Below are positions 11,661-27,114 of a stretch of DNA of 40,984 nucleotides, in pieces (the stretch's first letter is position 1; every line of letters starts with the position of its first letter). Source of the DNA: Dongia deserti (lineage in GTDB: Bacteria > Pseudomonadota > Alphaproteobacteria > Dongiales > Dongiaceae). The notes beneath the pieces are model-generated. The model was given only the letters and a program-made list of their open reading frames with translations. It did not search any database and was not told the DNA's origin. The translations under genes were made by a program, and so were the position numbers. The stretch lies in assembly GCF_003574735.1 (NCBI RefSeq), contig NZ_QORW01000032.1, forward strand, positions 1 to 40,984, given 5' to 3'.

Positions 11661-12812
11661 ATGGCCCGAGAACGCTCGATTGCGCATCGCGTGTCCTCGT
11701 TGCGCCCGTCCGCGACCGTCGAAATGACAGAGAAGGTGCGGGCGGCACGGGCTGCGGGCCGGCGTATTCTCTCCCTGGCCAGTGGCGATCCGGGCATTCC
11801 AACGGATCCTCGGATCATCGAGGCTGCCCATGGTGCGCTGAAAGCCGGAAACACCCGCTACGGCCCGGTGCTCGGTGACGCGCACCTGCGGCAGGCTCTC
11901 GCCTTGCACGAAAACAGGCGTTCCGGCGCCAGTTACGAGGACGCGGACATCATTGTGACGCCGGGAGGCAAGTTCGCCCTTCTCACCGCGCTCATGAGTA
12001 TCGTTGGACCGGAGTGCGAGGTGTTGGTTCCGGAACCGGGCTGGGTCAGCTACGGTCCATGCGTCCAGCTTTGCGGCGGGACGCCCGTCCTTCTGCCCAT
12101 GCTGGACCAACTCGACCTGGCGGCCATGGAGACGGCGCTCACGGATCGCACCGTTGCCGTCATCGTGAATTCGCCCGTCAATCCGACCGGCCGCGTCCTG
12201 CAGCGGAGCGAGATTGATGGATTAGTCGCGCTCGCAGAACGTCATAATCTCTGGATCGTGTTCGACCAGGTCTATTCCGATCTGGTCCATGCTGGCGCCT
12301 TCCCCACGCCGCAGGCGACGGCCAAGGGCCGCCCGATTACGTTTGTGGTCGACAGCTTCTCCAAGACATTCGGGATGACCGGATGGCGTCTCGGATATCT
12401 CGCCGTCCCACCTCAACTGGCCAAGCCGGTCAGCCGCTTCATCCAACATTCAATCTATTGTGTCCCCGGCGCGGTGCAGGCCGCCGGGCTAAAGGCACTG
12501 CAGATCTACGACGACGTGATTCCGGGCTACCGCGCCGTGTTTCGGCGTCGCCAGCAGGAAGCCGCAGCGCGTCTGAACGCCGTTCCTGGCATTGAATGCA
12601 AGGCGCCAGGAGCATCCTTCTATCTCTTCCCGCATGTCGATGCGGACGACCGCGCTCTCGCTGCCCGGTGGCTCGATGAACACGACATCGCAACGGTGCC
12701 GGGATCCGCCTTCGGCAAGGCAGGGAGCGGGCATCTGCGCCTCACCGTGACGGCTCCGGATGCCGAGATCGACGAAGCGCTTCGTCGAATCGAAACCATG
12801 GGCGTGCGCTGA
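11661..12812 (+). CDS. PLP-dependent class I/II aminotransferase
   Basis: A 383-residue fold-type I aminotransferase of the aspartate/aromatic group. Substrate-side GDPGIPTDP is near residue 43 and NSPVNPTGR near 170. The PLP lysine lies in SFSKTFGMTGWRLGY near residue 240, and the carboxylate-binding arginine is probably in SGHLRLTV near 360. The start is MARERS, with GGAGG 5 bases upstream; an ATG 33 bases earlier is less likely. It heads a seven-gene operon and should turn an imported amino acid into its 2-oxo acid, which the downstream tautomerase/hydratase/aldolase or decarboxylase could use. Amino donor and substrate are unknown. Confidence 0.92.
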   Translation: MARERSIAHRVSSLRPSATVEMTEKVRAARAAGRRILSLASGDPGIPTDPRIIEAAHGALKAGNTRYGPVLGDAHLRQALALHENRRSGASYEDADIIVTPGGKFALLTALMSIVGPECEVLVPEPGWVSYGPCVQLCGGTPVLLPMLDQLDLAAMETALTDRTVAVIVNSPVNPTGRVLQRSEIDGLVALAERHNLWIVFDQVYSDLVHAGAFPTPQATAKGRPITFVVDSFSKTFGMTGWRLGYLAVPPQLAKPVSRFIQHSIYCVPGAVQAAGLKALQIYDDVIPGYRAVFRRRQQEAAARLNAVPGIECKAPGASFYLFPHVDADDRALAARWLDEHDIATVPGSAFGKAGSGHLRLTVTAPDAEIDEALRRIETMGVR

Positions 12813-12819
12813 GGCTTTC

Positions 12820-13917
12820 ATGACTGCAGGCCTGATCGAAATTCCATGCACTTTGATGCGAGGCGGAACCTCGAAGGGCCCGTTCTTCGTCGCGTCAGAC
12901 CTTCCATCCCACGTTCCAACCCGGGACGCGGTGCTGCTCGCGGCACTTGGTTCGCCGGACATCCGTCAGATCGACGGCGTCGGCGGCGCCGATCCGCTTA
13001 CCAGCAAGGTCGGAATCGTCACGCAATCGAAGCGCGATGACGTGGATCTCGAGTTCCAGTTCGCTCAGGTCAGCATCGACAAGGCGCTGGTCGACACCAC
13101 ACCCAACTGCGGCAACTTGCTGGCGGCAGTCGTCCCCTTCGCGATCGAGCGAGGTCTCATCGCTCCGGCGTCCGGCACAACGAAGGCGCGGGTCCTCACC
13201 ATCAATACCGGGACGATTGCCGACATCACTGTGGAGACACCGGCCGGCGAACTAACTTACAATGGAACGGCCCGGATTGACGGCGTCCCCGGTGCGTACG
13301 CTCCAATCCTGATTTCCTTCCGCGATACCGCCGGCTCCGTGTGCGGGTCGCTCCTGCCGAGCGGCAGATCAGTGGATGTCGTCGACGGCATTCCTTGCAC
13401 GCTCATCGACAACGGAATGCCGGTGGTGGTCCTCCGCGCCGATGCGCTGGGCATCTCGGGTTATGAGACGAGGGACGAACTGAATGCCGATCTCGTCCTC
13501 GCTGCCAGGCTGGAGCGCATCCGCCTCGCAGCGGGACCGAAGATGAATTTGGGAGACGTCTCTTCCAAGCCGGTGCCAAAAATGACGCTGATAGCGCCGG
13601 CGCGCCACGGCGGCGCCATCTCCACACGCACCTTTATCCCGCATGTTTGTCACGCCAGCATCGGCGTTCTCGGAGCGGTCACCGTCGCCACCGCCTGCGC
13701 GCTGAAGGGCTCGATCGCCGACGGCATGGCAGTGGTGCCTGCGAACGGCAGGCTGTCGATCGAACATCCCAGCGGCGAATTCACTGTAGAGCTCGATATC
13801 CACATGACGGAAAGCGGCCCCGAAGTTCTCAAAGCCGCCCTGCTTCGGACCGCGCGGCGGCTTTTCGCCGGAACGGTCGCCGTTCCGGGATCGGCCTGGC
13901 CCCAGCGGCACAGATGA
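12820..13917 (+). CDS. galD: PrpF family isomerase, 4-oxalomesaconate tautomerase-like
   Basis: A 365-residue PrpF-family protein (diaminopimelate-epimerase fold). The N-terminal IPCTLMRGGTSKGPFF is the signature of 4-oxalomesaconate tautomerases (GalD/LigU) and related aconitate isomerases. TTPNCGNLLAAVVPFAIERG holds the catalytic cysteine region near residue 90. GalD/LigU moves a double bond between forms of 4-oxalomesaconate in gallate and protocatechuate 4,5-cleavage pathways; PrpF itself isomerises methylaconitate. It starts 7 bases after the aminotransferase stop. The next two genes are the following two steps of the same lower pathway, which supports the specific call. Confidence 0.88.
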   Translation: MTAGLIEIPCTLMRGGTSKGPFFVASDLPSHVPTRDAVLLAALGSPDIRQIDGVGGADPLTSKVGIVTQSKRDDVDLEFQFAQVSIDKALVDTTPNCGNLLAAVVPFAIERGLIAPASGTTKARVLTINTGTIADITVETPAGELTYNGTARIDGVPGAYAPILISFRDTAGSVCGSLLPSGRSVDVVDGIPCTLIDNGMPVVVLRADALGISGYETRDELNADLVLAARLERIRLAAGPKMNLGDVSSKPVPKMTLIAPARHGGAISTRTFIPHVCHASIGVLGAVTVATACALKGSIADGMAVVPANGRLSIEHPSGEFTVELDIHMTESGPEVLKAALLRTARRLFAGTVAVPGSAWPQRHR

Positions 13918-13950
13918 AACAGAACATCAAAGCTTGAAAGGAGAGGCCGC

Positions 13951-14667
13951 ATGGCGGCAAAGACTGGAATTGTCGTGAGCGCCCATTCAGCGGACTTCGT
14001 CTGGCGCGCGGGTGGTGCGATCGCACTGCATGCGGCCATGGGGTACCACGTCCGTGTCGTTTGCCTTTCCTACGGCGAGCGTGGTGAATCCGCCAAGCTT
14101 TGGCGTGAGCAGGGTATGACGGAGGACCGGGTCAAGTCATCGCGTCGCAAGGAAGCGCAGATGGCCGCGGAGATTCTGGGTTGCGAAGCCGTATTCCTTG
14201 ATTGCGGCGACTATCCGCTGACTGCCGGCCGAGAGGTGGTTTTCACGCTAGTCGACCATTTCCGCGAACTGCAGCCAACCTTCGTGCTCTCGCACTCGCT
14301 GGAAGATCCTTACAATTTTGACCATCCGCTCGCATCGCATATCGCGCAGGAGGCGCGTATCGTTGCGCAGGCGCATGGCCACAAGCCCGGTGAAAAAGTC
14401 TTGGGGGCGCCGCCTGTCTATCTGTTCGAGCCTCATCAGCCGGAACAGTGCAAGTGGCGTCCGGAAGTCTTTCTCGACATCGGGTCGGTCTGGGAGAAGA
14501 AGCGCGCGGCATTCGAGTGCATGTCGGCGCAGGAGCATCTTTGGGAATACTATACGCGCGTTGCCCTGCAGCGCGGCAACCAGGCCGCCCGCAACACCGG
14601 CCGCAAGGTGACCTACGGCGAAGCCTATCAGCGCGTCTTCCCTGATCTGGTGGAGCAGCTGGGATGA
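13951..14667 (+). CDS. galB: PIG-L/LmbE family 4-oxalomesaconate hydratase-like protein
   Basis: A 238-residue PIG-L superfamily protein. In place of the deacetylase AHPDD motif it has VVSAHSADFVWRAGGAIALH (His12, Asp15), the form seen in GalB-type 4-oxalomesaconate hydratases. DPYNFDHPLASHIAQEAR near residue 120 supplies further metal-ligand histidines, and EPHQPEQCKWRP and QEHLWEYYTRVALQRG are strongly GalB-like. The Zn-dependent enzyme hydrates 4-oxalomesaconate to 4-carboxy-4-hydroxy-2-oxoadipate. A good AAGGAGAGG precedes the start. It overlaps the aldolase gene by 4 bases, so product and next enzyme are coupled. No ring-cleavage dioxygenase is in the window, so the supply of its substrate must differ from gallate degradation or come from elsewhere. 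Confidence 0.88.
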   Translation: MAAKTGIVVSAHSADFVWRAGGAIALHAAMGYHVRVVCLSYGERGESAKLWREQGMTEDRVKSSRRKEAQMAAEILGCEAVFLDCGDYPLTAGREVVFTLVDHFRELQPTFVLSHSLEDPYNFDHPLASHIAQEARIVAQAHGHKPGEKVLGAPPVYLFEPHQPEQCKWRPEVFLDIGSVWEKKRAAFECMSAQEHLWEYYTRVALQRGNQAARNTGRKVTYGEAYQRVFPDLVEQLG

Positions 14668-15371
14668 GGCCGGTCGCAATCAGGAACATTGAGAGGGCCG
14701 ATGCCGCAGTGCTCGCGCGCCTCGGTGCTGCCGGCGTCTCGACCGTCCATGAGGCCCAGGGCCGGACGGGCCTCGCCAAGACCTATCTTCGTCCGGCCTG
14801 GTCCGGCGCATCCGCGCATGGGAGTGCCGTGACGGTCCTGGCACGGCCCGGTGACAACTGGATGATCCACGTCGCAGTCGAGTTGTGTCAGCCCGGCGAC
14901 ATGCTGGTGGTCGCTGTCAGTTCGGACAATTACGACGGCATGTTCGGTGAGCTGCTTGCGACGTCGTTGCGGGCGCGTGGTGTTCGGGGCCTCATTATCG
15001 ATGCGGGCTGCCGCGACGTGGCCGCGCTGAAGGAACTTGGCTTTCCCGTCTGGTCGCGCTGCATCAGCGGACAGGGCACCGTGAAAGCGACGCTCGGGGC
15101 CGTGAACGTGCCCGTGGTGGTTGCCGGGGTCGCTGTCAGTCCGGGTGACGCGGTTGTTGCCGACGATGACGGAGTCGTCTTTGTTTCCCGCGCCATGGCG
15201 GCGGATGTCGCCGGCAAGTGCGACGCGCGCATCGCCAAGGAGAAGGGGGTCCGGCGGCGCCTTGCCGCCGGGGAACTCGGGCTCGACATCTACGGCATGC
15301 GGGATGCGCTCGCCAAGGCGGGTCTCGTCTACCTCGACGATGCGGGCGAGCTTGGCGACATGCCGCAGTAG
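14664..15371 (+). CDS. ligK: 4-carboxy-4-hydroxy-2-oxoadipate aldolase (LigK/GalC)
   Basis: A 235-residue class II pyruvate aldolase of the HMG/CHA aldolase (RraA-like fold) family. Diagnostic segments are RPGDNWMIHVAVELCQPGDM (61-80), LLATSLRARGVRGLIIDAGCRD with Arg117 and Asp118 as base/metal-site residues, ISGQGTVKATLGAVNVPVVV, and the LAAGELGLDIYGMR tail. It splits 4-carboxy-4-hydroxy-2-oxoadipate into pyruvate and oxaloacetate. Family members also cleave 4-hydroxy-4-methyl-2-oxoglutarate to two pyruvates and decarboxylate oxaloacetate. It overlaps galB by 4 bases. With galD and galB it makes a complete three-step sequence from 4-oxalomesaconate to central metabolism. Confidence 0.92.
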   Translation: MRPVAIRNIERADAAVLARLGAAGVSTVHEAQGRTGLAKTYLRPAWSGASAHGSAVTVLARPGDNWMIHVAVELCQPGDMLVVAVSSDNYDGMFGELLATSLRARGVRGLIIDAGCRDVAALKELGFPVWSRCISGQGTVKATLGAVNVPVVVAGVAVSPGDAVVADDDGVVFVSRAMAADVAGKCDARIAKEKGVRRRLAAGELGLDIYGMRDALAKAGLVYLDDAGELGDMPQ

Positions 15372-15395
15372 ATTGGAAACATCAGGAGAGCAAGC

Positions 15396-15911
15396 GTGGC
15401 CCGCTGGTTTGACACCGTCGCCGCCGTCCTGAAACGCAACGAGGTCCGGCTCGTGACTTACGTGCCGGACAAGGTCCTCGCGCCGCTGATCCGCGCGCTG
15501 GAGGCGGACAGCTATTTCACGACCTTCTGCCCCACCCGCGAGGAAGAGGCCGCCGGCATCGTGTGCGGCGGATGGATGGGTGGGATGCGCGGCATCGTGC
15601 TCATGCAGACCAGCGGGTTCGCGACCCTCGCCAACGTGCTCGCCTCGCTGGCGCTGCCCTACAGAATCCCCTTGCTCATGATGATTTCGGAGCGGGGAAC
15701 GCTGGGTGAGTTCAATGTGGGCCAGGCCATGGTATGCCGCAGCATGCGGCCAATGTTGACTGCCCTCGGCATCGAGCACCATACGCTTTCTCGTCGCGAT
15801 GAGATCGACTTCATCGTCGATCGCACGGTCAATCAGGCAATTGCGACGCAGGAACCCGCAGCCTTCATTCTCTCTCCGCTGCTGACACACGCCAAACGCC
15901 AGGAGGCCTGA
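15396..15911 (+). CDS. ThDP-dependent 2-oxo acid decarboxylase, alpha (PYR) subunit
   Basis: A 171-residue protein matching the pyrimidine-binding half of ThDP decarboxylases in the sulfopyruvate/phosphonopyruvate decarboxylase group (ComD-like). TYVPDKVLAPLIRALEAD, then CPTREEEAAGIVCGGWMGG, carries the catalytic Glu that activates ThDP near residue 50. VLMQTSGFATLANVLASLAL and PLLMMISERG follow. A GTG start is set by AGGAGAG 5 bases upstream. The beta half is the next gene, 1 base apart. Together they should decarboxylate a 2-oxo acid to an aldehyde, probably the product of the aminotransferase at 11661. A sulfopyruvate substrate is possible but not indicated by other genes. Confidence 0.88.
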   Translation: MARWFDTVAAVLKRNEVRLVTYVPDKVLAPLIRALEADSYFTTFCPTREEEAAGIVCGGWMGGMRGIVLMQTSGFATLANVLASLALPYRIPLLMMISERGTLGEFNVGQAMVCRSMRPMLTALGIEHHTLSRRDEIDFIVDRTVNQAIATQEPAAFILSPLLTHAKRQEA

Positions 15912-15912
15912 G

Positions 15913-16524
15913 ATGACGGCACGCCAGACCGCCGCGAGTGGCGCGCAGGAAGTACTCATGAGCCGCTTCGATCTGACTTCACGGCTGGTTGCCAGGCTGC
16001 GAAGCGACGAGGCTGTGGTCGGCGGCATCGGTAACAACAATTTCGATCTGTGGGCTACCGGGCGCCGTCCACAGAATTTCTACATGCTGGGAAGCATGGG
16101 TCTCTGCTTCCCCATCGCCCTCGGCCTGGCACTGACCCAGCCTCGGCGTCGCGTCGTCGCGATCGAGGGTGATGGATCGCTGCTGATGCAGCTCGGCTGC
16201 CTTGCGACCATCGCGGAGCGGCGCCCTGCTAACCTGACGCTGCTAGTGATGGACAACGGTTCTTATCAAATTACCGGCGGACAGAAGGCCGCAACGCATC
16301 ACGGCGCAGATCTGGTGACGATCGCCCGTGGTTGTGGCCTTAACGAAAGCCGCTGGGCGGAGAACACCGCCCACTTCGAGGAGCTCCTGGACAACGCCCT
16401 GATCGGAGACCGGCCGCATCTTATCGCGGCGAAGATCGACGAAGCGCCAGGACGGGCAACTACTGACCGCGATCCCGCCTGGATCCGCGACACCTTCATG
16501 CGGGGACTTGGCACCCGTTCCTGA
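15913..16524 (+). CDS. ThDP-dependent 2-oxo acid decarboxylase, beta (PP) subunit
   Basis: A 203-residue partner carrying the diphosphate-binding half (ComE-like). GIGNNNFDLW is near residue 37. The ThDP/Mg motif runs from GDGSLLMQLG to NGSYQITGG near residues 92-120 (GDG-X25-N type). LGSMGLCFPIALGLAL is the usual substrate-side loop. AGGAGG lies 7 bases before this ATG, favouring it over an internal Met at codon 16. It is translationally linked to the alpha subunit. The split into two chains is usual for sulfopyruvate decarboxylases and rarer for other family members. Confidence 0.88.
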   Translation: MTARQTAASGAQEVLMSRFDLTSRLVARLRSDEAVVGGIGNNNFDLWATGRRPQNFYMLGSMGLCFPIALGLALTQPRRRVVAIEGDGSLLMQLGCLATIAERRPANLTLLVMDNGSYQITGGQKAATHHGADLVTIARGCGLNESRWAENTAHFEELLDNALIGDRPHLIAAKIDEAPGRATTDRDPAWIRDTFMRGLGTRS

Positions 16525-16547: not shown

Positions 16548-17975
16548 ATGGCAATAGAATCCCGGATCCGATCTCTCATTGATGGCCAGGACGAGCCGGG
16601 CGGCAGCGTTTTCACGCTCCGCGACAAATATCTGGGCACCGAGCTCGCCGAGGTCGAAACGGCGAATGCCCACAATGTCACTCAAGCGGTCGCCGCTGCC
16701 AGGCGCGCTTTCGCCGGCACGGTGCCGCCGCCGCATCGGCGATTTGCCATTCTGTCAGATGCAGCGCGCCTGCTGGAGGCACGCCGTCCGCTGTTTTCCG
16801 ACACGCTGGTCGCGGAAGCGGGCTTTACCCTTTCGGATGCGGCAAGCGAGATCGACCGGGCGATCTTGACCCTTGGTCTTTGCGCCGAGCAGGCGCGCCA
16901 GCTGCATGGCGACATGGTTGCCCTCGATGCCTCGCCCGGCCAGGAGAAACGGATCGCCTTTACGATGAGGACGCCGATCGGCATCGTGTGCGCCATCACG
17001 CCGTTCAATTCGCCGCTGAATGTCGTGCTGCACAAGATCGCGCCCGCGCTCGCGGCCGGAAACGCCGTCATCGTGAAGCCATCCGGCCACACGCCGAAAA
17101 CCGCGGTGCTGCTGGCTCGCCTGCTGATCGATGCGGGATTGCCGCCGGGACTCATCGGCGTGCTGCACGACCAGAATGGCGAAGCCGCGCAGGCGCTGCT
17201 GGCCGAGCAGGATATTGGTTTCTATACGTTCACCGGAAGCACCAGGGTCGGACGGCTCATTCAGAACGCGGCAGGTCTGCGGCGCACTCAGCTCGAGCTC
17301 GGTAGCATCGCAAGCACCATCGTCTGCGGCGATGCAGATCTCGATCTGGCCCTTCCCAAAATCGCGAACGCCGCATTTCGGAAGGCCGGCCAAGTTTGCA
17401 CATCGGTGCAGCGCCTCTACGTCCAGGCGCCAATTTATGAGGATGTCCTGGAGCGGATCATCGCGATCGCAGCCGCGATGCCGGCTGGCGACCCGCGCGA
17501 TGCAAAAACGCGGGTCGGTCCGATGATTTCAGAGGACGCCGCTGTCCGGGTCGAAAGCGTGGTACGGCAAGCCGCGCTAGCCGGGGCTGAGATTCGGTGC
17601 GGCGGGCAAAGGTCTGGCGCGGTTCATGCTCCGACCATCTTGGTAGGGACCGTGGCGGGAATGCGGGTGATGGACGAAGAGATATTCGGTCCAGTCCTGT
17701 CGGTCATTCCGTTCACAGTGCTCGAAGAAGCGGTCCACGGTGCCAACGACACCCCCTATGGCCTTTCTGTCGGCGTCTTCACCAGAGATATCGGACATGC
17801 GCTGAAGGCAGCCCGGACGCTCCGGTTCGGGGCGGTCCATATCAACGAAACCTCCAGCGCCCGCGCCGATGCCATGCCGTTCGGCGGAGTGAAGGACAGC
17901 GGTTTCGGCCGGGAAGGGCCGGCATACGCGATCCGCGAATACACCGAAGAGCGCCTCATTACCGTCACCTGCTGA
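16548..17975 (+). CDS. NAD(P)-dependent aldehyde dehydrogenase
   Basis: A 475-residue ALDH-superfamily enzyme. Cofactor segment ITPFNSPLNVVLHKIAPALA is near residue 145, KPSGHTPKTA near 178, FTGSTRVG near 227, catalytic Glu in ELGSIAST near 250, and catalytic Cys in KAGQVCTSVQRLYV near 285. A PFGGVKDSGFGREGP tail completes it. The family oxidises aldehydes to acids or acyl derivatives. Sitting 23 bases after the decarboxylase beta gene, it most likely oxidises the aldehyde made by that enzyme. It closes the seven-gene operon. The Shine-Dalgarno sequence is weak. Specific substrate not readable. Confidence 0.92.
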   Translation: MAIESRIRSLIDGQDEPGGSVFTLRDKYLGTELAEVETANAHNVTQAVAAARRAFAGTVPPPHRRFAILSDAARLLEARRPLFSDTLVAEAGFTLSDAASEIDRAILTLGLCAEQARQLHGDMVALDASPGQEKRIAFTMRTPIGIVCAITPFNSPLNVVLHKIAPALAAGNAVIVKPSGHTPKTAVLLARLLIDAGLPPGLIGVLHDQNGEAAQALLAEQDIGFYTFTGSTRVGRLIQNAAGLRRTQLELGSIASTIVCGDADLDLALPKIANAAFRKAGQVCTSVQRLYVQAPIYEDVLERIIAIAAAMPAGDPRDAKTRVGPMISEDAAVRVESVVRQAALAGAEIRCGGQRSGAVHAPTILVGTVAGMRVMDEEIFGPVLSVIPFTVLEEAVHGANDTPYGLSVGVFTRDIGHALKAARTLRFGAVHINETSSARADAMPFGGVKDSGFGREGPAYAIREYTEERLITVTC

Positions 17976-18015: not shown

Positions 18016-18059
18016 CCAACAATATTGCTAACAATCTAGATATCATAATTGATAACAAA
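18016..18059. promoter_or_regulatory. Tandem operator-like sites upstream of SBP copy 2
   Basis: Two copies of the core, ATTGCTAACAAT (18024-18035) and ATTGATAACAAA (18048-18059), sit 24 bases apart, about 68-100 bases before the SBP start. The flank CCAACAATATTG (18016-18027) adds a further inverted half-site. The spacing would put two dimers about two helical turns apart. Confidence 0.6.
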
Positions 18060-18126
18060 GAGCGCCGTGAATGCGACGACGCTCCGGACCCGGACTAAGG
18101 GCCGGACACAACGGTCGGGAGGACCC

Positions 18127-19011
18127 ATGACTGCCAAGTTTCGCCTGCAGTGCGGTGCCGCGGTGGCGTGCATCGCGATCCTTTGCACTGGCGCAATGGA
18201 TCGCGCAGCGAACGCCGAAACCACTCTGGAGAAGATTAAGGCACAAGGCGTCATCCGCCTCGGCTTCACAAACGAGGCACCGTTTGCATATGCCACGCCC
18301 GACGGCCAGCTGACGGGCGTCGTGATCGAAGTGCTCCATCACATCTTCGACCAGATGGGGGTCAAGGATTTTGATGGCGGATTGACGACGTTCGGCGGCC
18401 TCATTCCCGGTCTGAAGGCCAAGCGCTTCGATCTCGTCACGTCGTCCATCTACATCAAGCCGGACCGGTGCACCCAGGTTGCTTTCGCGGAGCCGCTGTA
18501 CATTCTTGGTGACGGAGTTGCGGTCAAAGTCGGAAACCCGCGCAACATCCACAGCTACGCCGACGTGGCCAAAGACCAGTCAATCAAGCTCGCCTACACG
18601 GTTGGCGGAACCGGCATCACCGAGAATGCCCAAGCGCTTGGCGTCAGACCGGAGCAGCTCGTTCCGGTACCCGACGACCGGAGCGGCTATGCGGCGGTCC
18701 AGGCTGGCCGCGTCGACGGCTTCGCCAACCCGGCCTCGATCCTGGAAAGCGAGCTCCAAGCACTGGGCGCTAATTCTGGTCTGGAGCGCGCCTCTCCGTT
18801 CGAGCAGCCGGTCGAGAACGGAAAGCCCCGCTATGGCTTTGCAAGCTTTGCGGTCAGGCTGGAGGACCAGGACTTGCTCCAGGAAATCAACCAGCACCTC
18901 AGCGTATTTCGGGCTTCGCCCGAGTTCACGGCGATCATGTCCAAATACGGGTTCTCGAAGGACGACATGATTCCCGAAGGGGTGACCACCTCCAAGATCT
19001 GCGCTGGATGA
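18127..19011 (+). CDS. EhuB-like extracytoplasmic substrate-binding protein (copy 2)
   Basis: A 294-residue family 3 SBP, the same length as the protein at 10495-11379. It is clearly its paralogue: long shared runs include PFAYATPDG, LTTFGGLIPGL and AKRFDLVTS, and I estimate well over half of the residues identical. A signal peptide ends near RAANA. GGGAGGA precedes the ATG. It heads the second transporter operon (DUF1989, ATPase, permease, third SBP). Differences cluster after residue 170, where ligand contacts would lie, so the two copies may bind related but distinct solutes. Confidence 0.92.
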   Translation: MTAKFRLQCGAAVACIAILCTGAMDRAANAETTLEKIKAQGVIRLGFTNEAPFAYATPDGQLTGVVIEVLHHIFDQMGVKDFDGGLTTFGGLIPGLKAKRFDLVTSSIYIKPDRCTQVAFAEPLYILGDGVAVKVGNPRNIHSYADVAKDQSIKLAYTVGGTGITENAQALGVRPEQLVPVPDDRSGYAAVQAGRVDGFANPASILESELQALGANSGLERASPFEQPVENGKPRYGFASFAVRLEDQDLLQEINQHLSVFRASPEFTAIMSKYGFSKDDMIPEGVTTSKICAG

Positions 19012-19021
19012 GGTGGGACCG

Positions 19022-19632: not shown

Positions 19633-20469
19633 ATGCAGCCGCTCCTACAGGTCCGCAATCTGCGGAAGTCTTACGGCTCTCTCGAGGTCCTGCACGGCAT
19701 CTCGATCGATATCGCGCCGGGTGAAGTAGTCGCGATCATCGGTGCCAGCGGTTCGGGCAAGAGCACTTTCCTGCGCTGCCTCAACCTGCTGGAAACGCCG
19801 ACAAGCGGAGAACTCTGTTTCGACGGAAAGCCAGTCGAGTACGGCGAGGAGGGCTGGGGCTGGCGACGCGAGAAGCAATTACAATGGCTGCGCTCCCAGA
19901 TCGGCATGGTGTTCCAGAGCTTTAATCTCTGGCCCCACAAGACGGTCATCGAGAACATTATCGAAGCACCGATGATCGTGAAGAACGTTCCGCGCTACGA
20001 GGCCGTTGCTGAGGCCGAGGACCTCCTGCGGCGGATTGGTCTCGCGGAAAAGCGGGACGCCTTTCCCTCGCGCCTCTCTGGTGGCCAGCAGCAGCGGGTC
20101 GCAATCATCCGATCCCTCGCCATGAAGCCGAAGCTGATGCTGTTTGACGAGGTGACATCTTCCCTGGATCCCCAACTCGTCGGGGAAGTTCTGAACCTGA
20201 TGGCGAGTCTCGCCGCGGAAGGCATGACAATGCTGGCGGTGACGCACGAGATGTCTTTTGCCCGGTCGGTCAGCACCCGCACCATCTTCTTTGACGGCGG
20301 GGTGATCGCCGAGGAGGGACCCTCGCACGTCGTCCTCAACCACCCGCGGCAGGCGCGCACACAACGGTTCCTCAGTCGGACACTGCCCGTTATTGGGCCG
20401 GCGGTCACGGTTGCCGAGATACAGTCAGGGCAAGCTCGCGTCGCTCAAGATCTAAGTGCGGGAGCGTAG
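19633..20469 (+). CDS. Amino acid ABC transporter ATP-binding protein (second system)
   Basis: A 278-residue polar amino acid ABC ATPase. Walker A GASGSGKST is at residues 37-45, Q-loop FQSFNLWPH near 98, signature LSGGQQQR near 150, Walker [14 protein letters not shown] near 172 and switch His in VTHEMSFA near 207. A C-terminal extension of about 25 residues beyond the usual end has no known motif. It starts 3 bases after the DUF1989 stop, so it belongs to that operon. It energises the permease encoded next. Confidence 0.95.
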   Translation: MQPLLQVRNLRKSYGSLEVLHGISIDIAPGEVVAIIGASGSGKSTFLRCLNLLETPTSGELCFDGKPVEYGEEGWGWRREKQLQWLRSQIGMVFQSFNLWPHKTVIENIIEAPMIVKNVPRYEAVAEAEDLLRRIGLAEKRDAFPSRLSGGQQQRVAIIRSLAMKPKLMLFDEVTSSLDPQLVGEVLNLMASLAAEGMTMLAVTHEMSFARSVSTRTIFFDGGVIAEEGPSHVVLNHPRQARTQRFLSRTLPVIGPAVTVAEIQSGQARVAQDLSAGA

Positions 20470-20473
20470 GTCG

Positions 20474-21118
20474 GTGCAGTCAGTATTCGCCTCGCTCCCT
20501 GGATTCCTGTATGCGACCTGGCTCACGATCGAGATCGCCGTTCTGGTTATTCTGCTCAGCTGGGGGTTCGGATTGGTGGCCGCGTTGGGTAAGCGGTCTC
20601 GTATCGCAATCCTGCGGGTACCTTGCGACCTCTACATCTGGTTCGTACGCGGCACGCCAGCGATGATCCAGATCTTCGCGGTCTATTTCGGGCTTCCGCA
20701 GTTCGGCATTTCGATGTCGCCCTTCGTGGCTGGTGTCATCACTCTCAGCCTTAACAGCGGCGCTTATGTCGCGGAGATCATCCGCGGGGGTCTGATGGCG
20801 ATACCAAAAGGGCAATACGAATCGCCTATCGCTCTCGGCCTCAGCCACGCGCAGTCCTTCCGGCGGATCATCCTTCCGCAGGTCGCCCGCATCATCCTGC
20901 CCGCCATTACAAACGAGGCGGTCGCCACACTTAAGAACACGTCGCTCCTGTCAGTAATCACGGTGGTGGAGCTGACGTTTCACGCTCAGATCGTCATCGC
21001 CAAGACGTTCCAACCGTTCCAGTTCTACATCCTTGCGGCGCTCATCTATCTGCTGCTGACCACCTTGCTGACCCGCGCTTCCGCACTCTTGGAGGCACGA
21101 AACGCAGTGAGAAGCTGA
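20474..21118 (+). CDS. Amino acid ABC transporter permease (second system)
   Basis: A 214-residue HisM-type permease with VRGTPAMIQIFAVYFGLPQF near residue 65 and the EAA-type loop around SPIALGLSHAQSFRRIILPQ near 125. The GTG at 20474 has GGAGCG 7 bases upstream; an earlier GTG at 20456 lies inside the ATPase gene without a clear ribosome site. Only one permease is present in this system, so it must work as a homodimer or borrow a partner from the first transporter. Confidence 0.92.
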   Translation: MQSVFASLPGFLYATWLTIEIAVLVILLSWGFGLVAALGKRSRIAILRVPCDLYIWFVRGTPAMIQIFAVYFGLPQFGISMSPFVAGVITLSLNSGAYVAEIIRGGLMAIPKGQYESPIALGLSHAQSFRRIILPQVARIILPAITNEAVATLKNTSLLSVITVVELTFHAQIVIAKTFQPFQFYILAALIYLLLTTLLTRASALLEARNAVRS

Positions 21119-21141
21119 CACTCATGAGAGGGAGGAAGACC

Positions 21142-21942
21142 ATGCGTTTCCAAAGAATGCTGAAGCATTGTGTCATTGCGTCGAGCTTAATTCTGGCCAT
21201 AGCGCAAGGTCAGTCCCGCGCCGACGATCTCGAACTCCTGGTGCCAGGCCAGCTTTCGGCCGCAACCGAAGGCACCTATCCGCCTTTCAGCATGCAAAAC
21301 GATCAAGGCCAGCTCGACGGCATCGACGTTCGGCTCATGCGCGAGATCGCACGACGTCTCGGCCTCGAATACAAACCCGTCCTTCTCAAGTTCGATTCGC
21401 TGCTGATCGGGCTGGAAGCGAACCAGTTCGACGTCATCGGATCTCCGCTCGACATCACGGAGGAGCGCAAGCAGCGCGTGACTTTCTCCGATGGATGGAT
21501 CGAATCCGGCGCGCGATTGGTGGTGCCCAACGACTCTCCCGTGAAGGCACCAGGCGACATCGCGGGAAAAACGGTCGGCGTGCTCGCCGCTTCCACGTGG
21601 GGCGATCTTGCCAAGCCCCTCAATCCCGGTGAACTCAAGACCTACAAGTCGGAGTCGGATGCATTTCAGGACCTGGTCAATGGCAATATTGACGCAATCG
21701 TGACCGACGGAATCTCCGCCTCCTACAACATAAAGCAGTCGAGCGCGCCTCTTCGGCTGGTTGAAACGCCGTTGAGCACGCTGCAGAAGGCGTGGACCAT
21801 CAAGAAAGGAAAGCCAGGCCTCGTCAAGGCGATCAACCAAGCCATCGCCGACATGATAGCAGATGGCACCTATGCGAAGTTGACATCAGACTTTCTGAGC
21901 TTCGATGCCGCGCCGAAGAATCCCATCAGAAGCAATCTGTGA
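21142..21942 (+). CDS. Family 3 amino acid ABC transporter substrate-binding protein
   Basis: A 266-residue periplasmic SBP (HisJ/GlnH family) with a signal peptide ending near GQSRADD. ATEGTYPPFSMQNDQGQLDG is the ligand-site strand, then GIDVRLMREIARRLG and FDVIGSPLDITEERKQRVTFS (the ITxER motif). It is not close to the two EhuB-like copies. ATG at 21142 is chosen because GGGAGGA lies just upstream, over one 18 bases earlier. Last gene of the operon, so this system has an SBP at each end. Confidence 0.92.
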   Translation: MRFQRMLKHCVIASSLILAIAQGQSRADDLELLVPGQLSAATEGTYPPFSMQNDQGQLDGIDVRLMREIARRLGLEYKPVLLKFDSLLIGLEANQFDVIGSPLDITEERKQRVTFSDGWIESGARLVVPNDSPVKAPGDIAGKTVGVLAASTWGDLAKPLNPGELKTYKSESDAFQDLVNGNIDAIVTDGISASYNIKQSSAPLRLVETPLSTLQKAWTIKKGKPGLVKAINQAIADMIADGTYAKLTSDFLSFDAAPKNPIRSNL

Positions 21943-21981: not shown

Positions 21982-23133
21982 TCAGCTCTCCGTGGCGTTG
22001 GTGATTGCAGACTTTCCAAGTCGCTCGCATCCGGATTCCGTCACAAGGAATGTCTCGCCGGGAACAGCGGTGACGCCTTTGTCGTCGGTGATCGCGAGAA
22101 ACATGAAGAACACCATGCCTGGCTCGGCGATCACCGGATTGTCGCGATAGAGCATCGGCCAATCCATCCAGTTGGGCGAGAAGGTCGTGCCGAGACTGTA
22201 ACCGCAGGCGTTGAGGTTGTTCTTTGTGAAACCCGCCCGTTCAAGCGTCCCGATATAGGCATTGTAGACATTGCCAACGGGCTCTCCGGGACGCAGGGCA
22301 TTCGAGCTGGCTTCCAGCGCGTCCATGGCCCTGTGATGGATCTCGTTCTGCCGGGCGGTCGCCTTGCCGATGGTGATCACCCGCATCAGACATGAGTGGT
22401 AGTGACGGAAGACACCGGCGAACTCCAGCGTCAACTGCTCTCCGGCCGCGACATGCCGCCGCCCCGCGAAGTAGCGCCCGAGATGCGCCGCGGGTCCGGA
22501 CACGATGATGAACTCGTTACCGGGATAGTCCCCGTCATCGCGGAAAATCGATCCCTGCAGCGCGGCGAGAATATCGCCTTCGAAGACACCGGGCCGCGCC
22601 AGCGCTAGTGCCTGGTCAAGCGCCCGGTCAGCCAGCACGGCCGCCTTGCGGACATAGACGATTTCTTCGGGTCGCTTGACGACCCGCTGCCGGGTGACCA
22701 GAAGCGATGCATCCTCTAGGTGGCAGAAGCCTTCGAGGGCCGCGGTCAACAAGCGGCCGTTATGCGCGGTGAGGCCATAGGCGTCCCACTCGACGCCCAG
22801 TCGCTTCCCCGAGCAGCCCTGTGCGCGCAGGATTTCACGCAGCTCACCTGTCGGATTGGCATCCACCCGGTCCACCCAGATGCGAATGTCTTCGATATTG
22901 GACGTGTAGCGGGCGACACGAGCATCGGGTGCACGCGTCAGGAGCGTCATGCGGCCGTCTGACTTGAGGAACAGGCATTGGAAGAACACGTAACCGAACG
23001 TGTCGTAGCCCGTCAGGTAGTACATGCTCTCCTGACGGAACATCAGCAGTCCATCCAGACCATCTGCTGCCATTCGACGAAGCGTCTCCGCCTTGCGGGC
23101 GGCGAATTCCGTAGCCGTAAAGTGGAGCGGCAT
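21982..23133 (-). CDS. M24-fold creatinase/ectoine-hydrolase-like protein
   Basis: A 383-residue two-domain pita-bread protein. The N-terminal creatinase-type domain covers about 1-150 (ADGLDGLLMFRQESMYYLTG), and the M24 fold about 160-380. The metal ligands of aminopeptidases are missing: LTLEFAGVFRHYHSC replaces the D-X10-D motif, GYSLGTTFSPNW replaces the GHGIG histidine, and PGMVFFMF lacks the Glu. This is the pattern of metal-free family members such as creatinase and ectoine hydrolase (DoeA/EutD). It probably opens a ring or cleaves a C-N bond in a small imported solute. It is divergent from the dehydrogenase-gntR operon, with a perfect 16-base palindrome 45 bases upstream. Confidence 0.88.
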   Translation of the reverse strand: MPLHFTATEFAARKAETLRRMAADGLDGLLMFRQESMYYLTGYDTFGYVFFQCLFLKSDGRMTLLTRAPDARVARYTSNIEDIRIWVDRVDANPTGELREILRAQGCSGKRLGVEWDAYGLTAHNGRLLTAALEGFCHLEDASLLVTRQRVVKRPEEIVYVRKAAVLADRALDQALALARPGVFEGDILAALQGSIFRDDGDYPGNEFIIVSGPAAHLGRYFAGRRHVAAGEQLTLEFAGVFRHYHSCLMRVITIGKATARQNEIHHRAMDALEASSNALRPGEPVGNVYNAYIGTLERAGFTKNNLNACGYSLGTTFSPNWMDWPMLYRDNPVIAEPGMVFFMFLAITDDKGVTAVPGETFLVTESGCERLGKSAITNATES

Positions 23134-23177: not shown

Positions 23178-23193
23178 AAATTGTCAACAATTT
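23178..23193. promoter_or_regulatory. Perfect 16-bp operator palindrome upstream of the M24 gene
   Basis: AAATTGTCAACAATTT has two perfect 7-base arms around CA. It is the best-formed member of the motif set and lies 45 bases before the M24 start, where it could overlap a promoter. It matches the TTGT-NN-ACAA pattern of FadR-type GntR operators. Confidence 0.65.
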
Positions 23194-23267: not shown

Positions 23268-23279
23268 ATTGATAACAAT
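23268..23279. promoter_or_regulatory. Operator-like site upstream of the dehydrogenase-gntR operon
   Basis: ATTGATAACAAT, identical to the site at 11453, lies 30 bases before the dehydrogenase start. TTTGTCAA follows at 23283. Position next to the start suggests repression, and therefore autoregulation of the downstream GntR gene. Confidence 0.6.
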
Positions 23280-23308
23280 CTGTTTGTCAATCCATCCCTA
23301 TCAGAATC

Positions 23309-24235
23309 ATGGTCAACCGAGACAATACAGTCTGCCTGATCGGCCTTGGAGAGGCAGGATCCATCTTCGCGAGAGCGATGTCTGAAAAGGCGGCGGTCCG
23401 CGCCTATGACAGCGCGTGGCAGAGTGACGAATTCAGAAAGCGAACAGCCTGGACCGGCGATGCAGGCATCTGCTTGGCGGGTTCTGCCGCCGAGGCTTCG
23501 ACCGGCGCGAAGCTAGTGCTGTCACTGGTGACCGCGGCCGCCTCCCTCGATGTGGCGCGCGAGGCCGGCACCTACCTACGGCCAGGGCAGATTCTTGTCG
23601 ACCTCAACTCAGTTTCACCTGGCACCAAATCGAGAAGTGCGGCGTTGGTCGAGCGCGGCGGAGCTGCCTACGTCGATGGCGCGATCATGGCGCCGGTGCC
23701 GCCTCGCGGACTTGGTGTTCCAATTCTCCTCGCTGGCGCACAGTCGAAGGCGGTCATCGATTCGCTCGCCCGATTTCCGATGAACCTTGAGATCGTTTCG
23801 GAGCGAATCGGACTCGCATCGGCGACCAAGATGTGCCGGAGCGTCATTATCAAGGGCATCGAGGCATTGTGCGCGGAGGCATTCCTGTCGGCGCGTGCGC
23901 ACGGCGTGGAAGAACGGGTGTTATCCTCGCTCCACGACACGTTTCCCGGAACCGACTGGAACAGGTTTGCCGCCTATCAGATTGGCCGTTCGCTCGTGCA
24001 TGGGCGCCGCCGGGCGGCGGAGATGCGCGAAGTGGCGCGCACGATCCAGGAGACCGGATTAGAGCCATCCATGGCGCATGCAACCGCGCATCGGCAGGAC
24101 TGGGCTGCGGACCTTTCTGACGCGCATCCAGAGCTCAAGAAGAGAAGCGACGAAGACTGGCTTCGCACGCTTGATCTCATTCTGGCGGCATCCGCTCATG
24201 GCGACGGCATGCCTGGCCGCGACAAACTACAATGA
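23309..24235 (+). CDS. NAD(P)-dependent dehydrogenase with DUF1932 C-terminal domain
   Basis: A 308-residue beta-hydroxyacid-dehydrogenase-like protein. The N-terminal Rossmann motif is CLIGLGEAGSIFARAM (residues 9-24). LVDLNSVSPGTKSRSA near 103 is the substrate loop. ASATKMCRSVIIKGIEALC near 180 includes the likely catalytic lysine, and the C-terminal helical DUF1932 domain follows. Related enzymes oxidise 3-hydroxy acids or 6-phosphogluconate-like substrates; the exact reaction is unknown. It overlaps the gntR gene by 4 bases. The start has no obvious Shine-Dalgarno sequence. Confidence 0.85.
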   Translation: MVNRDNTVCLIGLGEAGSIFARAMSEKAAVRAYDSAWQSDEFRKRTAWTGDAGICLAGSAAEASTGAKLVLSLVTAAASLDVAREAGTYLRPGQILVDLNSVSPGTKSRSAALVERGGAAYVDGAIMAPVPPRGLGVPILLAGAQSKAVIDSLARFPMNLEIVSERIGLASATKMCRSVIIKGIEALCAEAFLSARAHGVEERVLSSLHDTFPGTDWNRFAAYQIGRSLVHGRRRAAEMREVARTIQETGLEPSMAHATAHRQDWAADLSDAHPELKKRSDEDWLRTLDLILAASAHGDGMPGRDKLQ

Positions 24236-24960
24236 ACGTCATCAAAGAAACGGGAAACCGAATGAAAAGCTACGAGGGGCGCTCGGCGCGCGGGGCAAAG
24301 GAGAAGACTGCCAAGGAGAGGGTTGACCCGACGGCCGAGCTGCGGAGGGCGATCGAGACCGGCCATTTCATGCCGAGCCAGCGGCTGGTCGAGGCCGAGT
24401 TGGCGGCCTGGCTCGGTGTGAACCGCGCCAAGGTGAAACTCGCGCTTGGCAAGCTGGAACAGGAGGGTTTGGTTGTTTCGGAACCGAATCGCGGCGCGCG
24501 TGTGCGTGTCATCAGCGAGCAGGAAGCTCTGGAAATCTTGCAGGTCCGCACTGCGCTCGAATCGTTGATCGCGCGTCAGGCAGCCCAGCGTGCGACGCCG
24601 GCGGATCGCAAGCGCCTGCGTGAAATCCTGCAGAGCCTGCGGGATGCGATCGACAAGGAAGACTTCATGACCTATTCCGGCCAGAATGGCGTGCTGCACG
24701 CCGAGGTTCGCCGGATTTCTGGGCATGCGACCGCCAGCCGGGTGCTGTCGAACCTCAATTCGCAGATTGTCAGATTTCAGTTCCGGACGATTCTCTATCC
24801 TGGCCGCATTCACCAGTCGATCAGCGAGCATACGGAGATCGTCGAGGCAATCTGCGCGGGAGACGCGGATCGTGCCGAGAAAGCAACGCGCGATCACCTT
24901 GCCCATGTCACGGAGACGCTGGAGAAGAGCCTCGCTGCCCTGGCGCGGCACGCGGTCTGA
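24232..24960 (+). CDS. GntR family regulator, FCD (FadR) subgroup
   Basis: A 242-residue regulator. The N-terminal winged helix covers about 30-95 (SQRLVEAELAAWLGVNRAKV, then KLALGKLEQEGLVVSEPNRGARVRVIS). A helical FCD effector domain follows from about 100 (ALEILQVRTALESLIARQAA; EHTEIVEAICAGDADRAEKA holds a ligand/metal His). FCD regulators usually sense organic acids and repress until bound. It is translationally coupled to the dehydrogenase gene. The FadR-type palindromes in three intergenic regions of this locus, including its own promoter, make it the best candidate for their regulator. Confidence 0.92.
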   Translation: MNVIKETGNRMKSYEGRSARGAKEKTAKERVDPTAELRRAIETGHFMPSQRLVEAELAAWLGVNRAKVKLALGKLEQEGLVVSEPNRGARVRVISEQEALEILQVRTALESLIARQAAQRATPADRKRLREILQSLRDAIDKEDFMTYSGQNGVLHAEVRRISGHATASRVLSNLNSQIVRFQFRTILYPGRIHQSISEHTEIVEAICAGDADRAEKATRDHLAHVTETLEKSLAALARHAV

Positions 24961-24997
24961 CCACCACGTCGATGTGCTAGCAGCGTCAGGCAGTTCC

Positions 24998-25612
24998 ATG
25001 AAGATCTATGGCGATATGATTTCCCCCTATGTGCGCATGTGCTTTGTCACCGCGCATGAAGCTGGAATCGGCGGTGATGTCTCTCTTGTCGCGACCGGCG
25101 TCACAGTCGCGACGGCCAATGCCGACCTCGTCGCGCTCTCGCCAATCGGCCAGATCCCGGTACTCGTCACGCAAGCCGATGATGCCGTGCACGATTCGCG
25201 GGTGATCATCGACTATCTTTGCGACATCGCAGGCAAGGAGGATTTACTTGCCCGCCGCGGGCTCGTCCGCACGCGCGTGCTGACTCTTCAGGCGGTTGGT
25301 CACGGTATTGCCGATGCGGCGGTCGGATACCGCAATGAAGTCGCGCAACGGCCACCAGAGCTGCACTGGCATGCGTGGCTTGAGCGGATGAAATTGAGAG
25401 TGGTTACTGCCCTCGACACGCTGGAAGGTCGCTGGCAACCGGAGCTTGCCAAGGTGACAGTCGGCTCGATCACTGTCGCGGTGGTACTGAGTTATCTCGA
25501 CTATCGGTTCCCGGATTGGACGTGGCGTCGGTCACGTCCGCAGCTGGGCCGGTTCCATGAAGCATTTAGCAGCCGCGATTCGATGCAACAGACCGCGCTG
25601 CCGGCGGCATAG
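24998..25612 (+). CDS. Glutathione S-transferase family protein
   Basis: A 204-residue GST-like protein. The N-terminal thioredoxin-fold domain (MKIYGDMISPYVRMCFVTAH) has a Ser-Pro-Tyr active-site turn, then LSPIGQIPVLV (cis-Pro) and DSRVIIDYL (glutathione-contacting Asp-Ser). The helical C-terminal domain has TVGSITVAVVLSYLDYRFPDW. It may be a glutathione-dependent isomerase or hydrolase in the catabolic route, or a stress enzyme. It begins 37 bases after gntR and ends 26 bases before the flavoprotein gene, so it lies in the same operon. Confidence 0.87.
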   Translation: MKIYGDMISPYVRMCFVTAHEAGIGGDVSLVATGVTVATANADLVALSPIGQIPVLVTQADDAVHDSRVIIDYLCDIAGKEDLLARRGLVRTRVLTLQAVGHGIADAAVGYRNEVAQRPPELHWHAWLERMKLRVVTALDTLEGRWQPELAKVTVGSITVAVVLSYLDYRFPDWTWRRSRPQLGRFHEAFSSRDSMQQTALPAA

Positions 25613-25638
25613 CCGCGCACAACCGGTGAGGTAGACAG

Positions 25639-27114
25639 ATGGATGGGAGATACGACGTCGTCGTCGTCGGAGCGGGAAACGCTGCGTTGTGTGCAGCGCT
25701 TGCCGCCCGGGAAAGCGGCAAGCAGGTGCTGCTTCTTGAGGCTGCGCCGATCGAGCAGAGTGGCGGCAATAGCCGTTTCACCGCCGGTGCCATGCGCGTA
25801 GTTTATGACGGCGTGGATGATCTGGCGACGCTGATGCCCGATCTCACAGAGGATGAGAAGGCGCGTACGGATTTCGGCCACTATAGCGCTGGCGACTTTC
25901 TGGACGACATGGGGCGCGTCACTCACTATCGCACCAACCCGGAGTTGGCCGAGTTGTTAGTCAATCGTAGCCTCCCAACGTTGCTTTGGATGCAGAGCAA
26001 AGGCGTGCGGTTCGCTCCCATCTATGGCCGGCAGGCATTCAAGGTCGATGGTCGTTTCAAGTTCTGGGGCGGACTTACCGTAGAGGCGTGGGGCGGTGGG
26101 CCGGGCCTGGTTACCGCGCTCACCCAGGCCTGCGGAAAGGCCGGCATTGACGTTCTCTACGAGTGCCGCGCAGAACGATTGGTGCGCAAGAACGATGCCG
26201 TGGTTGGACTGGTGGCGCGTCACCGTGGCCAGGTGACCCGCATCGCCGCGCGCTCGGTGATTCTCGCTGCCGGAGGTTTCGAAGCCAATCCTGAGTGGCG
26301 CACGCGCTACTTGGGTCCCGGATGGGATCTCGCGAAAGTGCGCGGCAGTCGGTTCAACCAGGGCGACGGCATACGCATGGCGCTCGAAGCCGGGGCGGCG
26401 TCATGCGGCCATTGGTCGGGATGCCACGCAGTTGGCTGGGAACGAAACGCGCCCGAGTTCGGGGACCTCGACGTAGGCGACGGATTTCAGAAGCACAGCT
26501 ATCCCTTCGGTATCATGCTTAATGCGAAGGGCCGGCGGTTTGTCGACGAAGGGGCTGACTTCAGAAATTACACATACGCGAAATACGGCCGGGTCATCCT
26601 GGAGCAGCCGGGACAGTTCGCCTGGCAGATCTTCGATCGCAAGGTCACCCATTTGCTGCGTGACGAGTATCGTATCCGGCAGGTCACGAAAGTGACCGCG
26701 GCGACGATCGAAGAACTCATACGGAGGCTCGAAGATGTGGATGCCGACGCGGCGCTAGCGGAAATTCGGGCGTTTAACGAGGCAGTGGATACCGACACGC
26801 CTTTCAATCCGAACGTCAAGGACGGCCGATCGGCGCCGGGACTCGACGTTCCCAAATCGAACTGGGCCAACCGGATCGATGAACCACCGTTCGAGGCGTA
26901 CTCGGTCACCTGCGGCATCACCTTTACATTCGGCGGACTGTCGATCGACGAGTCCGCGCGCGTACTCGACATCAATCGCGCGCCGATCCCGGGCCTGTAT
27001 GCCGCGGGCGAAATGGTTGGGGGGCTGTTCTACTTCAATTATCCGGGTGGAACAGGCCTGACGTCTGGCGCTGTCTTTGGCCGGATCGCAGGAGAAACGG
27101 CAACGCGTCATTAG
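25639..27114 (+). CDS. tcuA: FAD-dependent tricarballylate dehydrogenase-like flavoprotein
   Basis: A 491-residue flavoprotein of the fumarate reductase/succinate dehydrogenase superfamily, TcuA type. The FAD dinucleotide motif VVVVGAGNAALCAALAARES starts at residue 8, followed by LLEAAPIEQSGGNSRFTAGA. The active-site region near 410-430 is CGITFTFGGLSI, and the C-terminal FAD-binding tail is GLYAAGEMVGGLFYFNYPGG. TcuA oxidises tricarballylate to cis-aconitate and normally hands electrons to TcuB. No tcuB or tcuC transporter is present. Last gene of the regulator operon. It may act on tricarballylate made in this pathway or on a larger homologue. Confidence 0.87.
   Translation: MDGRYDVVVVGAGNAALCAALAARESGKQVLLLEAAPIEQSGGNSRFTAGAMRVVYDGVDDLATLMPDLTEDEKARTDFGHYSAGDFLDDMGRVTHYRTNPELAELLVNRSLPTLLWMQSKGVRFAPIYGRQAFKVDGRFKFWGGLTVEAWGGGPGLVTALTQACGKAGIDVLYECRAERLVRKNDAVVGLVARHRGQVTRIAARSVILAAGGFEANPEWRTRYLGPGWDLAKVRGSRFNQGDGIRMALEAGAASCGHWSGCHAVGWERNAPEFGDLDVGDGFQKHSYPFGIMLNAKGRRFVDEGADFRNYTYAKYGRVILEQPGQFAWQIFDRKVTHLLRDEYRIRQVTKVTAATIEELIRRLEDVDADAALAEIRAFNEAVDTDTPFNPNVKDGRSAPGLDVPKSNWANRIDEPPFEAYSVTCGITFTFGGLSIDESARVLDINRAPIPGLYAAGEMVGGLFYFNYPGGTGLTSGAVFGRIAGETATRH

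Follow-up and report, generated by a model that had tools for sequence, protein, structure and literature searches.

GalD, GalB and LigK, whose closest described counterparts act in the 4,5-cleavage of gallate and protocatechuate (GalD-GalB-GalC of Pseudomonas putida; LigU and LigK of Sphingobium), are commonly taken as signs of aromatic breakdown. As far as the account in PMC5065237 goes, a LigK-type aldolase cleaves both 4-hydroxy-4-methyl-2-oxoglutarate (HMG) and 4-carboxy-4-hydroxy-2-oxoadipate (CHA), and such aldolases are widespread in species that lack protocatechuate and gallate clusters, where it gives their role as unknown. Here we describe a gene island of Dongia deserti in which homologues of the three enzymes (the triad, 12760-15371) share an operon with an aminotransferase (AT), a two-subunit thiamine diphosphate (ThDP) decarboxylase, an aldehyde dehydrogenase (ALDH) and importers. 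Our window is the whole of contig NZ_QORW01000032.1 (40,984 nucleotides), one of 51 contigs of a 6.13-Mb genome with a completeness rating of 100%.

This is a real, conserved catabolic island and probably a new entry to a known lower pathway. Judged from its genes, the 4-oxalomesaconate arm is most likely supplied by AT, with no ring-cleavage step, because the pairing of AT with the triad recurs in four other genomes without a LigB-family match, and we think it fairly probable that the island serves the breakdown of a glutamate-like amino acid that is acidic and substituted at position 4. More tentatively, and at somewhat less than an even chance, we propose a ring-cleavage-independent amino-acid/lactam pathway of Pseudomonadota and Gemmatimonadota. 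Here a dedicated AT would start from an acidic, branched amino acid not so far known as bacterial food and make 4-oxalomesaconate or an analogue, and some triad genes now read as aromatic degradation would serve this pathway instead.

The aminotransferase-headed operon and its probable regulon

AT is the first gene of the operon, its open reading frame (ORF) starting at 11628 by the first-ATG rule, and intergenic gaps from AT to the third binding protein (SBP3; SBP, binding protein) range from -53 to +73 bp. A preliminary description of this DNA had the island begin at 11661; the gene set that it listed holds, whereas AT starts at 11628 and the conserved set extends left to HyuAB (1865-5631). 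The identities that it assigned to GalD, GalB and LigK were borne out by family and structure matches (Table 1): among NCBIfam models GalD reaches equivalog level and LigK exceeds the TIGR02798 cut-off. Moreover, the five residues given as catalytic in the P. putida F1 HMG/CHA aldolase (PMC5065237), namely Arg-123, Asp-124, His-75, Asn-71 and Lys-147 in that enzyme's numbering, are identical in the window LigK.

The same description had stated that the window lacks a ring-cleavage dioxygenase and a pyrone hydrolase, and indeed neither of these, nor a LigC-type dehydrogenase, was named in a Pfam scan of 30 window ORFs that left small ORFs aside. It had also named induction by gallate or protocatechuate, with a dioxygenase elsewhere in the genome, as one finding that would overturn it; a search of the whole genome gave just two LigB-family proteins, one DODA-like (192 bits, cut-off 233) and one HpaD-like (144 bits, cut-off 316), the latter adjoining genes that resemble HpaE and HpaG; none of these reaches its equivalog cut-off. 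Ring cleavage encoded elsewhere is not supported by this result, these two not being gallate or protocatechuate enzymes. A catechol 2,3-dioxygenase-type query likewise found no match in the genome, a negative that is weak alone, as the query had no positive control.

The operon appears to belong to a wider regulon. The operator pattern ATTGTYRACAAT, with up to 2 mismatches allowed, has 11 matches in the window against 2.78 expected (0 of 100 shuffles reach that), a count that supports the regulon but is not an independent test of it, because the pattern was derived from the promoters counted. Sites with 0-1 mismatches lie at 11453, 11595, 18024, 23180 and 23268, in the promoters of SBP1/AT, SBP2 and M24/DUF1932; each of the remaining six matches has 2 mismatches, and four of them fall outside the island. 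No site was found at the HyuB/LysR promoter. The operator at 11453 is inside the longest SBP1 ORF, and translation of SBP1 may in fact begin further inside it. In Mesorhizobium the pattern is found again at the SBP1/AT, SBP2 and M24/DUF1932 promoters, with 8 matches against 1.21 expected at one locus (L114; 0/100 shuffles) and 6 against 1.73 at another (L140; 2/200 shuffles). The shared operator thus supports a predicted regulon that ties the AT operon to the M24, DUF1932, GntR and TcuA genes, in agreement with the earlier suggestion of a regulon with TcuA and the importers; the island genes are probably co-regulated, and the GntR protein presumably reads the operator.

Aminotransferase and triad loci in other genomes

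Among 398 genomes searched in the phylum, AT was found at E<=1e-70 only in its own. A scan of a genome collection, which finds close relatives only, gave 14 loci; two at 24 and 26% identity were dropped (L126 was kept solely as outgroup of the AT tree), leaving 12 relatives in other genomes at 52-78% identity. Among plasmids, 435 records matched at E<=1e-40, none reaching 60% identity; the 20 matches listed are at 34-38%. The nearest solved structure is an aspartate aminotransferase, a type that would fit an acidic amino acid substrate, and all 12 aligned family members contain a GGK motif, which we take to bind the distal carboxylate. An amino-acid-type importer adjoins AT in 11/12 loci and HyuA/HyuB are near it in 4/12; in none of the 12 is there a dioxygenase of the queried types.

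The triad stands in line with AT in four of these loci, from Mesorhizobium sp. Root102, Bosea caraganae, Agaricicola taiwanensis and a Gemmatimonadaceae metagenome-assembled genome (MAG). None of the four genomes, which span two phyla, has a LigB-family match, and in each the AT-linked GalD is the sole GalD above 36% identity; this, together with the lack of a gallate/protocatechuate-type LigB in the Dongia genome, favours the earlier proposal that the triad is fed by transamination and not by ring cleavage. The Gemmatimonad operon consists of just TetR-AT-GalD-GalB-LigK, and in so minimal a set the AT product should be what GalD accepts. At the other extreme, Mesorhizobium sp. Root102 has the island genes from HyuA to TcuA, nearly the whole 25 kb, at 62-82% identity and partly re-ordered, and in addition another HyuAB, placed between LigK and the decarboxylase, as well as RidA- and VOC-family proteins. 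Its TcuA homologue (L140:4739-6198) lies in two frames, reflecting a broken gene or a sequencing error. Neither L114 nor L141 gave a match to the window's PhzF gene (672-1544). In quick trees of GalD, GalB and LigK, the window copy groups each time with those of Mesorhizobium and the Gemmatimonad in a supported clade, whereas all three Bosea enzymes and the Agaricicola GalD and GalB branch among LigB-linked copies, so the AT-triad pairing probably arose more than once; stop-containing translations (7/45 GalD; 1/25 LigK, that of Agaricicola) were omitted.

As to the triad at large, 54 of 385 genomes of the class, D. deserti included, matched GalD at E<=1e-50, and the best 40 of the 59 other places listed were taken. 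LigK and/or GalB lie beside GalD in 25 of these 40 fetched loci, of which 15 have LigB in the fetched DNA, two (L085, L089) a catechol 2,3-dioxygenase-family protein, two (L081, L090) a single-domain VOC protein and the remaining six no protein of a type queried (L075 and L080, short or contig-end stretches; L093-L095, from one genus; and L098). The dioxygenase check covered L073-L100 and L114-L125, with L101-L112, all without LigK or GalB beside GalD, left out. A triad without a nearby dioxygenase is uncommon, and it is not unique to AT loci. The two catechol 2,3-dioxygenase-family proteins (L085:7888-8856, 335 bits; L089:11628-12653, 303 bits; cut-off 320) accompany triad genes where there is no LigB, and could possibly provide another route into 4-oxalomesaconate. 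A DUF1932 dehydrogenase 38-47% identical to that of the window is beside GalD in 18 of the 25 loci (L073-L078, L080-L087, L089, L090, L092, L096).

One element of the earlier proposal, the branch through the decarboxylase and ALDH, falls outside the core: of the four other triad loci, three (L115, L116, L120) lack the pair in the DNA retrieved, and decarboxylase homologues at 59-67% identity also occur in other gene contexts. In our reading the pair would form a side branch that only some hosts have. On the sulfopyruvate decarboxylase (ComDE) model the alpha subunit scores 102 bits (cut-off 148) and on the sulfopyruvate beta model the beta subunit 143 (cut-off 221.5), which does exceed the uncharacterised PRK06163 (319 bits, cut-off 240); ALDH is over none of 25 cut-offs among the matches listed (best 25 of 45). 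The decarboxylase was tried and rejected as a marker of the system: NF004813 was over cut-off in 5/385 class genomes, and since the other four loci had differing contexts, AT was taken as marker instead. Homologues of the decarboxylase near HyuA/HyuB-type genes were seen at L040, L114:13707-18512 and L123:91-7819, two of which are AT loci. TcuA exceeds NF006130 and falls under TIGR02485 (272 bits, cut-off 372.6); homologues of it (67% and 64%) stand near a distant GalD relative (46-47%) in L100 and L108, perhaps as a tricarboxylate pathway. Finally, the best match of the decarboxylase alpha subunit among 16 other genomes of the order is only 38% identical, and GalD was not found at E<=1e-50 in four same-family genomes; with close matches to these two thus lacking in related genomes, the island may have been acquired.

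Candidate substrates and competing explanations

In the mechanism that we propose, the amino acid, or its lactam, amide or other N-blocked form, would be imported, and HyuAB, the amidase or the M24 hydrolase would open the N-blocked form. AT would then convert the amino acid into a 4-ylidene-2-oxoglutarate, a derivative that GalD would tautomerise, GalB hydrate and LigK cleave. With a carboxymethylene group the 2-oxo acid would be 4-oxalomesaconate and the products oxaloacetate and pyruvate; with a methylene group it would be the des-carboxy analogue 4-methylene-2-oxoglutarate, yielding two pyruvates. TcuA could desaturate a saturated precursor. Both 2-amino-4-carboxyadipate and 4-methyleneglutamate would give something that GalD could take, and we lean slightly towards 4-oxalomesaconate itself, formed from a 2-amino-4-carboxyadipate-type amino acid desaturable by TcuA, over the methylene analogue.

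The importers and hydrolases bear on the form in which the substrate might arrive. Window importer proteins exceed the EhuA, EhuB and EhuC NCBIfam models, and the EhuB-like SBPs keep aromatic residues and an arginine aligned with the ectoine box of EhuB, residues whose roles there we take as given. A candidate alpha-amino-binding residue varies across the AT-linked SBPs and was not used. Caprolactamase is the nearest characterised family of HyuAB, though far under the CapA/CapB cut-offs, and the M24 hydrolase scores 163 bits (cut-off 575) and 152 bits (cut-off 613) on two DoeA models. Taken together, the caprolactamase-like HyuAB, the amidase, the DoeA-like M24 hydrolase and the two EhuB-type SBPs suggest a cyclic (lactam) or other N-blocked precursor; the preliminary description had recognised importers and an amidase and had overlooked that HyuAB is caprolactamase-like and that two importers are of ectoine type.

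A number of observations weigh against an amino-acid route through AT and the triad. The comparison of the gene set across genomes that had been suggested finds the triad with AT at the four loci above, but seven of the 12 AT loci have no triad gene in the fetched DNA and one (L119) has GalB only. GalD was not found at E<=1e-40 in four of the 12 AT genomes, two others (G763, G765) have it only at 39-49% identity, and LigK is over its cut-off in seven, leaving five without. In Rhodoplanes Cfx2-03 (G764) and Rhodobium orientis (G767) the triad is located away from AT, and the latter has AT plus ordinary LigAB clusters, with the triad within these. On the AT tree, which excludes L124 (AT match split over two frames), the presence of the triad next to AT takes 4 changes to explain, where shuffling gives a mean of 4.2, and therefore does not track AT phylogeny. 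From the loci with no triad gene or GalB only, it follows that AT may have other outlets, or that assemblies, several being MAGs, may be incomplete. To our knowledge, a 2-amino-4-carboxyadipate-type amino acid has no common natural source, and the grounds for preferring 4-oxalomesaconate over its methylene analogue are weak. An amino-acid route into the 4-oxalomesaconate arm was not found described in the titles and abstracts listed from the open-licence literature. The Rhodoplanes set (L142) reads GalD-GalB-LigK-DUF1932, and its fetched stretch contains no LigA or LigB.

Of the competing explanations, the one closest to our own takes 4-methyleneglutamate as the substrate, its amide being opened by the amidase and its lactam by HyuAB. 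This compound occurs in plants such as peanut, and the minimal Gemmatimonad set would suffice for it, yet TcuA, the decarboxylase and ALDH would then be superfluous, and no account of its bacterial breakdown was found among the open-licence papers listed. Cleavage of HMG besides CHA by a LigK-type aldolase, as far as PMC5065237 describes it, would also suit this substrate. The enzyme sequences may lean slightly the other way: of the positions invariant in ring-cleavage rows (16 GalD, 13 GalB and 16 LigK, including L075, L081 and L090, where a dioxygenase is unproven), the window clade keeps 99/106 in GalD, 66/71 in GalB and 60/67 in LigK, and the other AT-linked rows 103/106, 68/71 and 66/67. 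With nearly all of them kept, there is no sign of a lost third-carboxylate site. We regard 4-methyleneglutamate as a serious, though less likely, contender.

The remaining explanations fare worse. An N-heterocycle such as a pyridone dicarboxylate, with HyuAB opening the ring lactam, the imino or amino product going to 4-oxalomesaconate and AT merely scavenging the amino form, would accord with the caprolactamase-like character of HyuAB, the ectoine-box residues of the SBPs and the RidA-family gene of the Mesorhizobium island; it is improbable given that the scan of the window ORFs named no ring hydroxylase or reductase and that HyuA/HyuB are near only 4/12 AT loci, among them just one of the four other triad loci. 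Quite improbable is an ordinary gallate/protocatechuate lower pathway with its dioxygenase elsewhere or of another family. Close GalD homologues in the surveyed genomes do lie mostly near LigB or catechol 2,3-dioxygenase-type genes, but the two LigB proteins of this genome, rated complete though in 51 contigs, are only DODA-like and HpaD-like, the catechol 2,3-dioxygenase-type query (without positive control) matched nothing, and the four other genomes with an AT-linked triad have no LigB match. Cysteate or phosphonate catabolism, by AT, a sulfopyruvate (phosphonopyruvate) decarboxylase and a sulfoacetaldehyde dehydrogenase with the triad as a separate function, we consider very improbable: the decarboxylase, ALDH and GntR protein resemble those families, yet all score under the respective equivalog cut-offs, and three other AT-triad loci lack the first two in the DNA retrieved.

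Gene content and comparison with known systems

Table 1. Genes and operator sites of the island, with window positions and basis of assignment (scores in bits)
Feature	Position	Strand	Basis
HyuA, caprolactamase/oxoprolinase-type ATPase subunit	1865..3973	-	Pfam; nearest NCBIfam CapA 499, cut-off 1000; 77% in Mesorhizobium
HyuB, partner subunit	3970..5631	-	Pfam; CapB 217, cut-off 1000; 71-78% in three AT genomes
LysR-type regulator, putatively of HyuAB	5759..6640	+	Pfam; adjoins HyuAB and AT in L114, L121, L122
Amidase	6650..8179	-	Pfam; 66% in Mesorhizobium
Ectoine-type importer: EhuA-like ATPase (8274-about 9035), permease (9041-9691), EhuC-like permease (9691-10401)	8274..10401	-	EhuA-like 389, cut-off 345; EhuC-like 254, cut-off 197; permease 9041-9691 placed via 77% Mesorhizobium match
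SBP1, EhuB-like binding protein	10495..11481	-	TIGR02995 252, cut-off 191; aligned to EhuB 2q88
Operator pair	11453-11464 and 11595-11606		1 mismatch each to ATTGTYRACAAT
AT, aspartate-type aminotransferase of a rare subfamily	11628..12812	+	12 relatives at 52-78%
GalD/LigU-type 4-oxalomesaconate isomerase (tautomerase)	12760..13917	+	NF033377 509, cut-off 440; LigU 6P3J 417
GalB-type (PIG-L) hydratase	13951..14667	+	P. putida GalB 5CGZ 371
LigK, HMG/CHA aldolase	14664..15371	+	TIGR02798 312, cut-off 304.5; 3NOJ 258
Two-subunit ThDP decarboxylase (15396-15911 and 15913-16524)	15396..16524	+	Family searches
ALDH	16548..17975	+	Family searches
Operator sites	18024-18035 and 18048-18059		1 and 2 mismatches, respectively
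SBP2, second EhuB-like binding protein	18049..19011	+	TIGR02995 242, cut-off 191; 56% identical to SBP1
DUF1989 protein	19013..19630	+	Pfam; 3oru 166
Polar-amino-acid-type importer: ATPase, permease, SBP3	19633..21942	+	Family searches
M24 hydrolase, nearest ectoine hydrolase DoeA	21982..23133	-	163, cut-off 575; 6twk 116
Operator pair	23180-23191 and 23268-23279		0 and 1 mismatch, respectively
DUF1932 dehydrogenase	23309..24235	+	Pfam; 4ezb 165
GntR/FCD regulator, candidate reader of the operator	24232..24960	+	80% in Mesorhizobium
Glutathione S-transferase family protein	24989..25612	+	Family searches
TcuA-type FAD dehydrogenase	25639..27114	+	NF006130 595, cut-off 369

Outside the island, positions 35155-40983 hold a very long open frame that continues past the contig end and has repeats that by eye look RTX-like or calcium-binding.

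If AT can be an entry point, reading the triad as a sign of aromatic breakdown would be misleading in genomes without a dioxygenase, and the island offers one role for the HMG/CHA aldolases of species without protocatechuate or gallate clusters. It also points to an amino acid or lactam of soil and plant environments that three binding proteins and one aminotransferase, used as reagents, could help to find.

Four described systems share parts of this gene set. Gallate and protocatechuate 4,5-cleavage shares highly similar GalD, GalB and LigK homologues, whereas here these stand in an operon headed by AT, in a genome without a LigB of the gallate/protocatechuate type. In caprolactam degradation the caprolactamase CapAB is followed by an aminotransferase, and the island likewise combines a lactamase-type HyuAB with an aminotransferase; however, its HyuAB falls far under the CapA/CapB cut-offs, its AT is of the aspartate type and its lower pathway is another one. 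The system for ectoine uptake and degradation (EhuABCD, DoeA/EutD) resembles it in EhuA, EhuB and EhuC proteins over cut-off and in an M24 hydrolase nearest DoeA, but this hydrolase is far under the DoeA cut-off, and the window showed no other recognisable ectoine-catabolic genes. Tricarballylate use (TcuABC) has in common with the island the TcuA-type FAD dehydrogenase, but neither TcuB nor TcuC was recognised among the scanned window ORFs.

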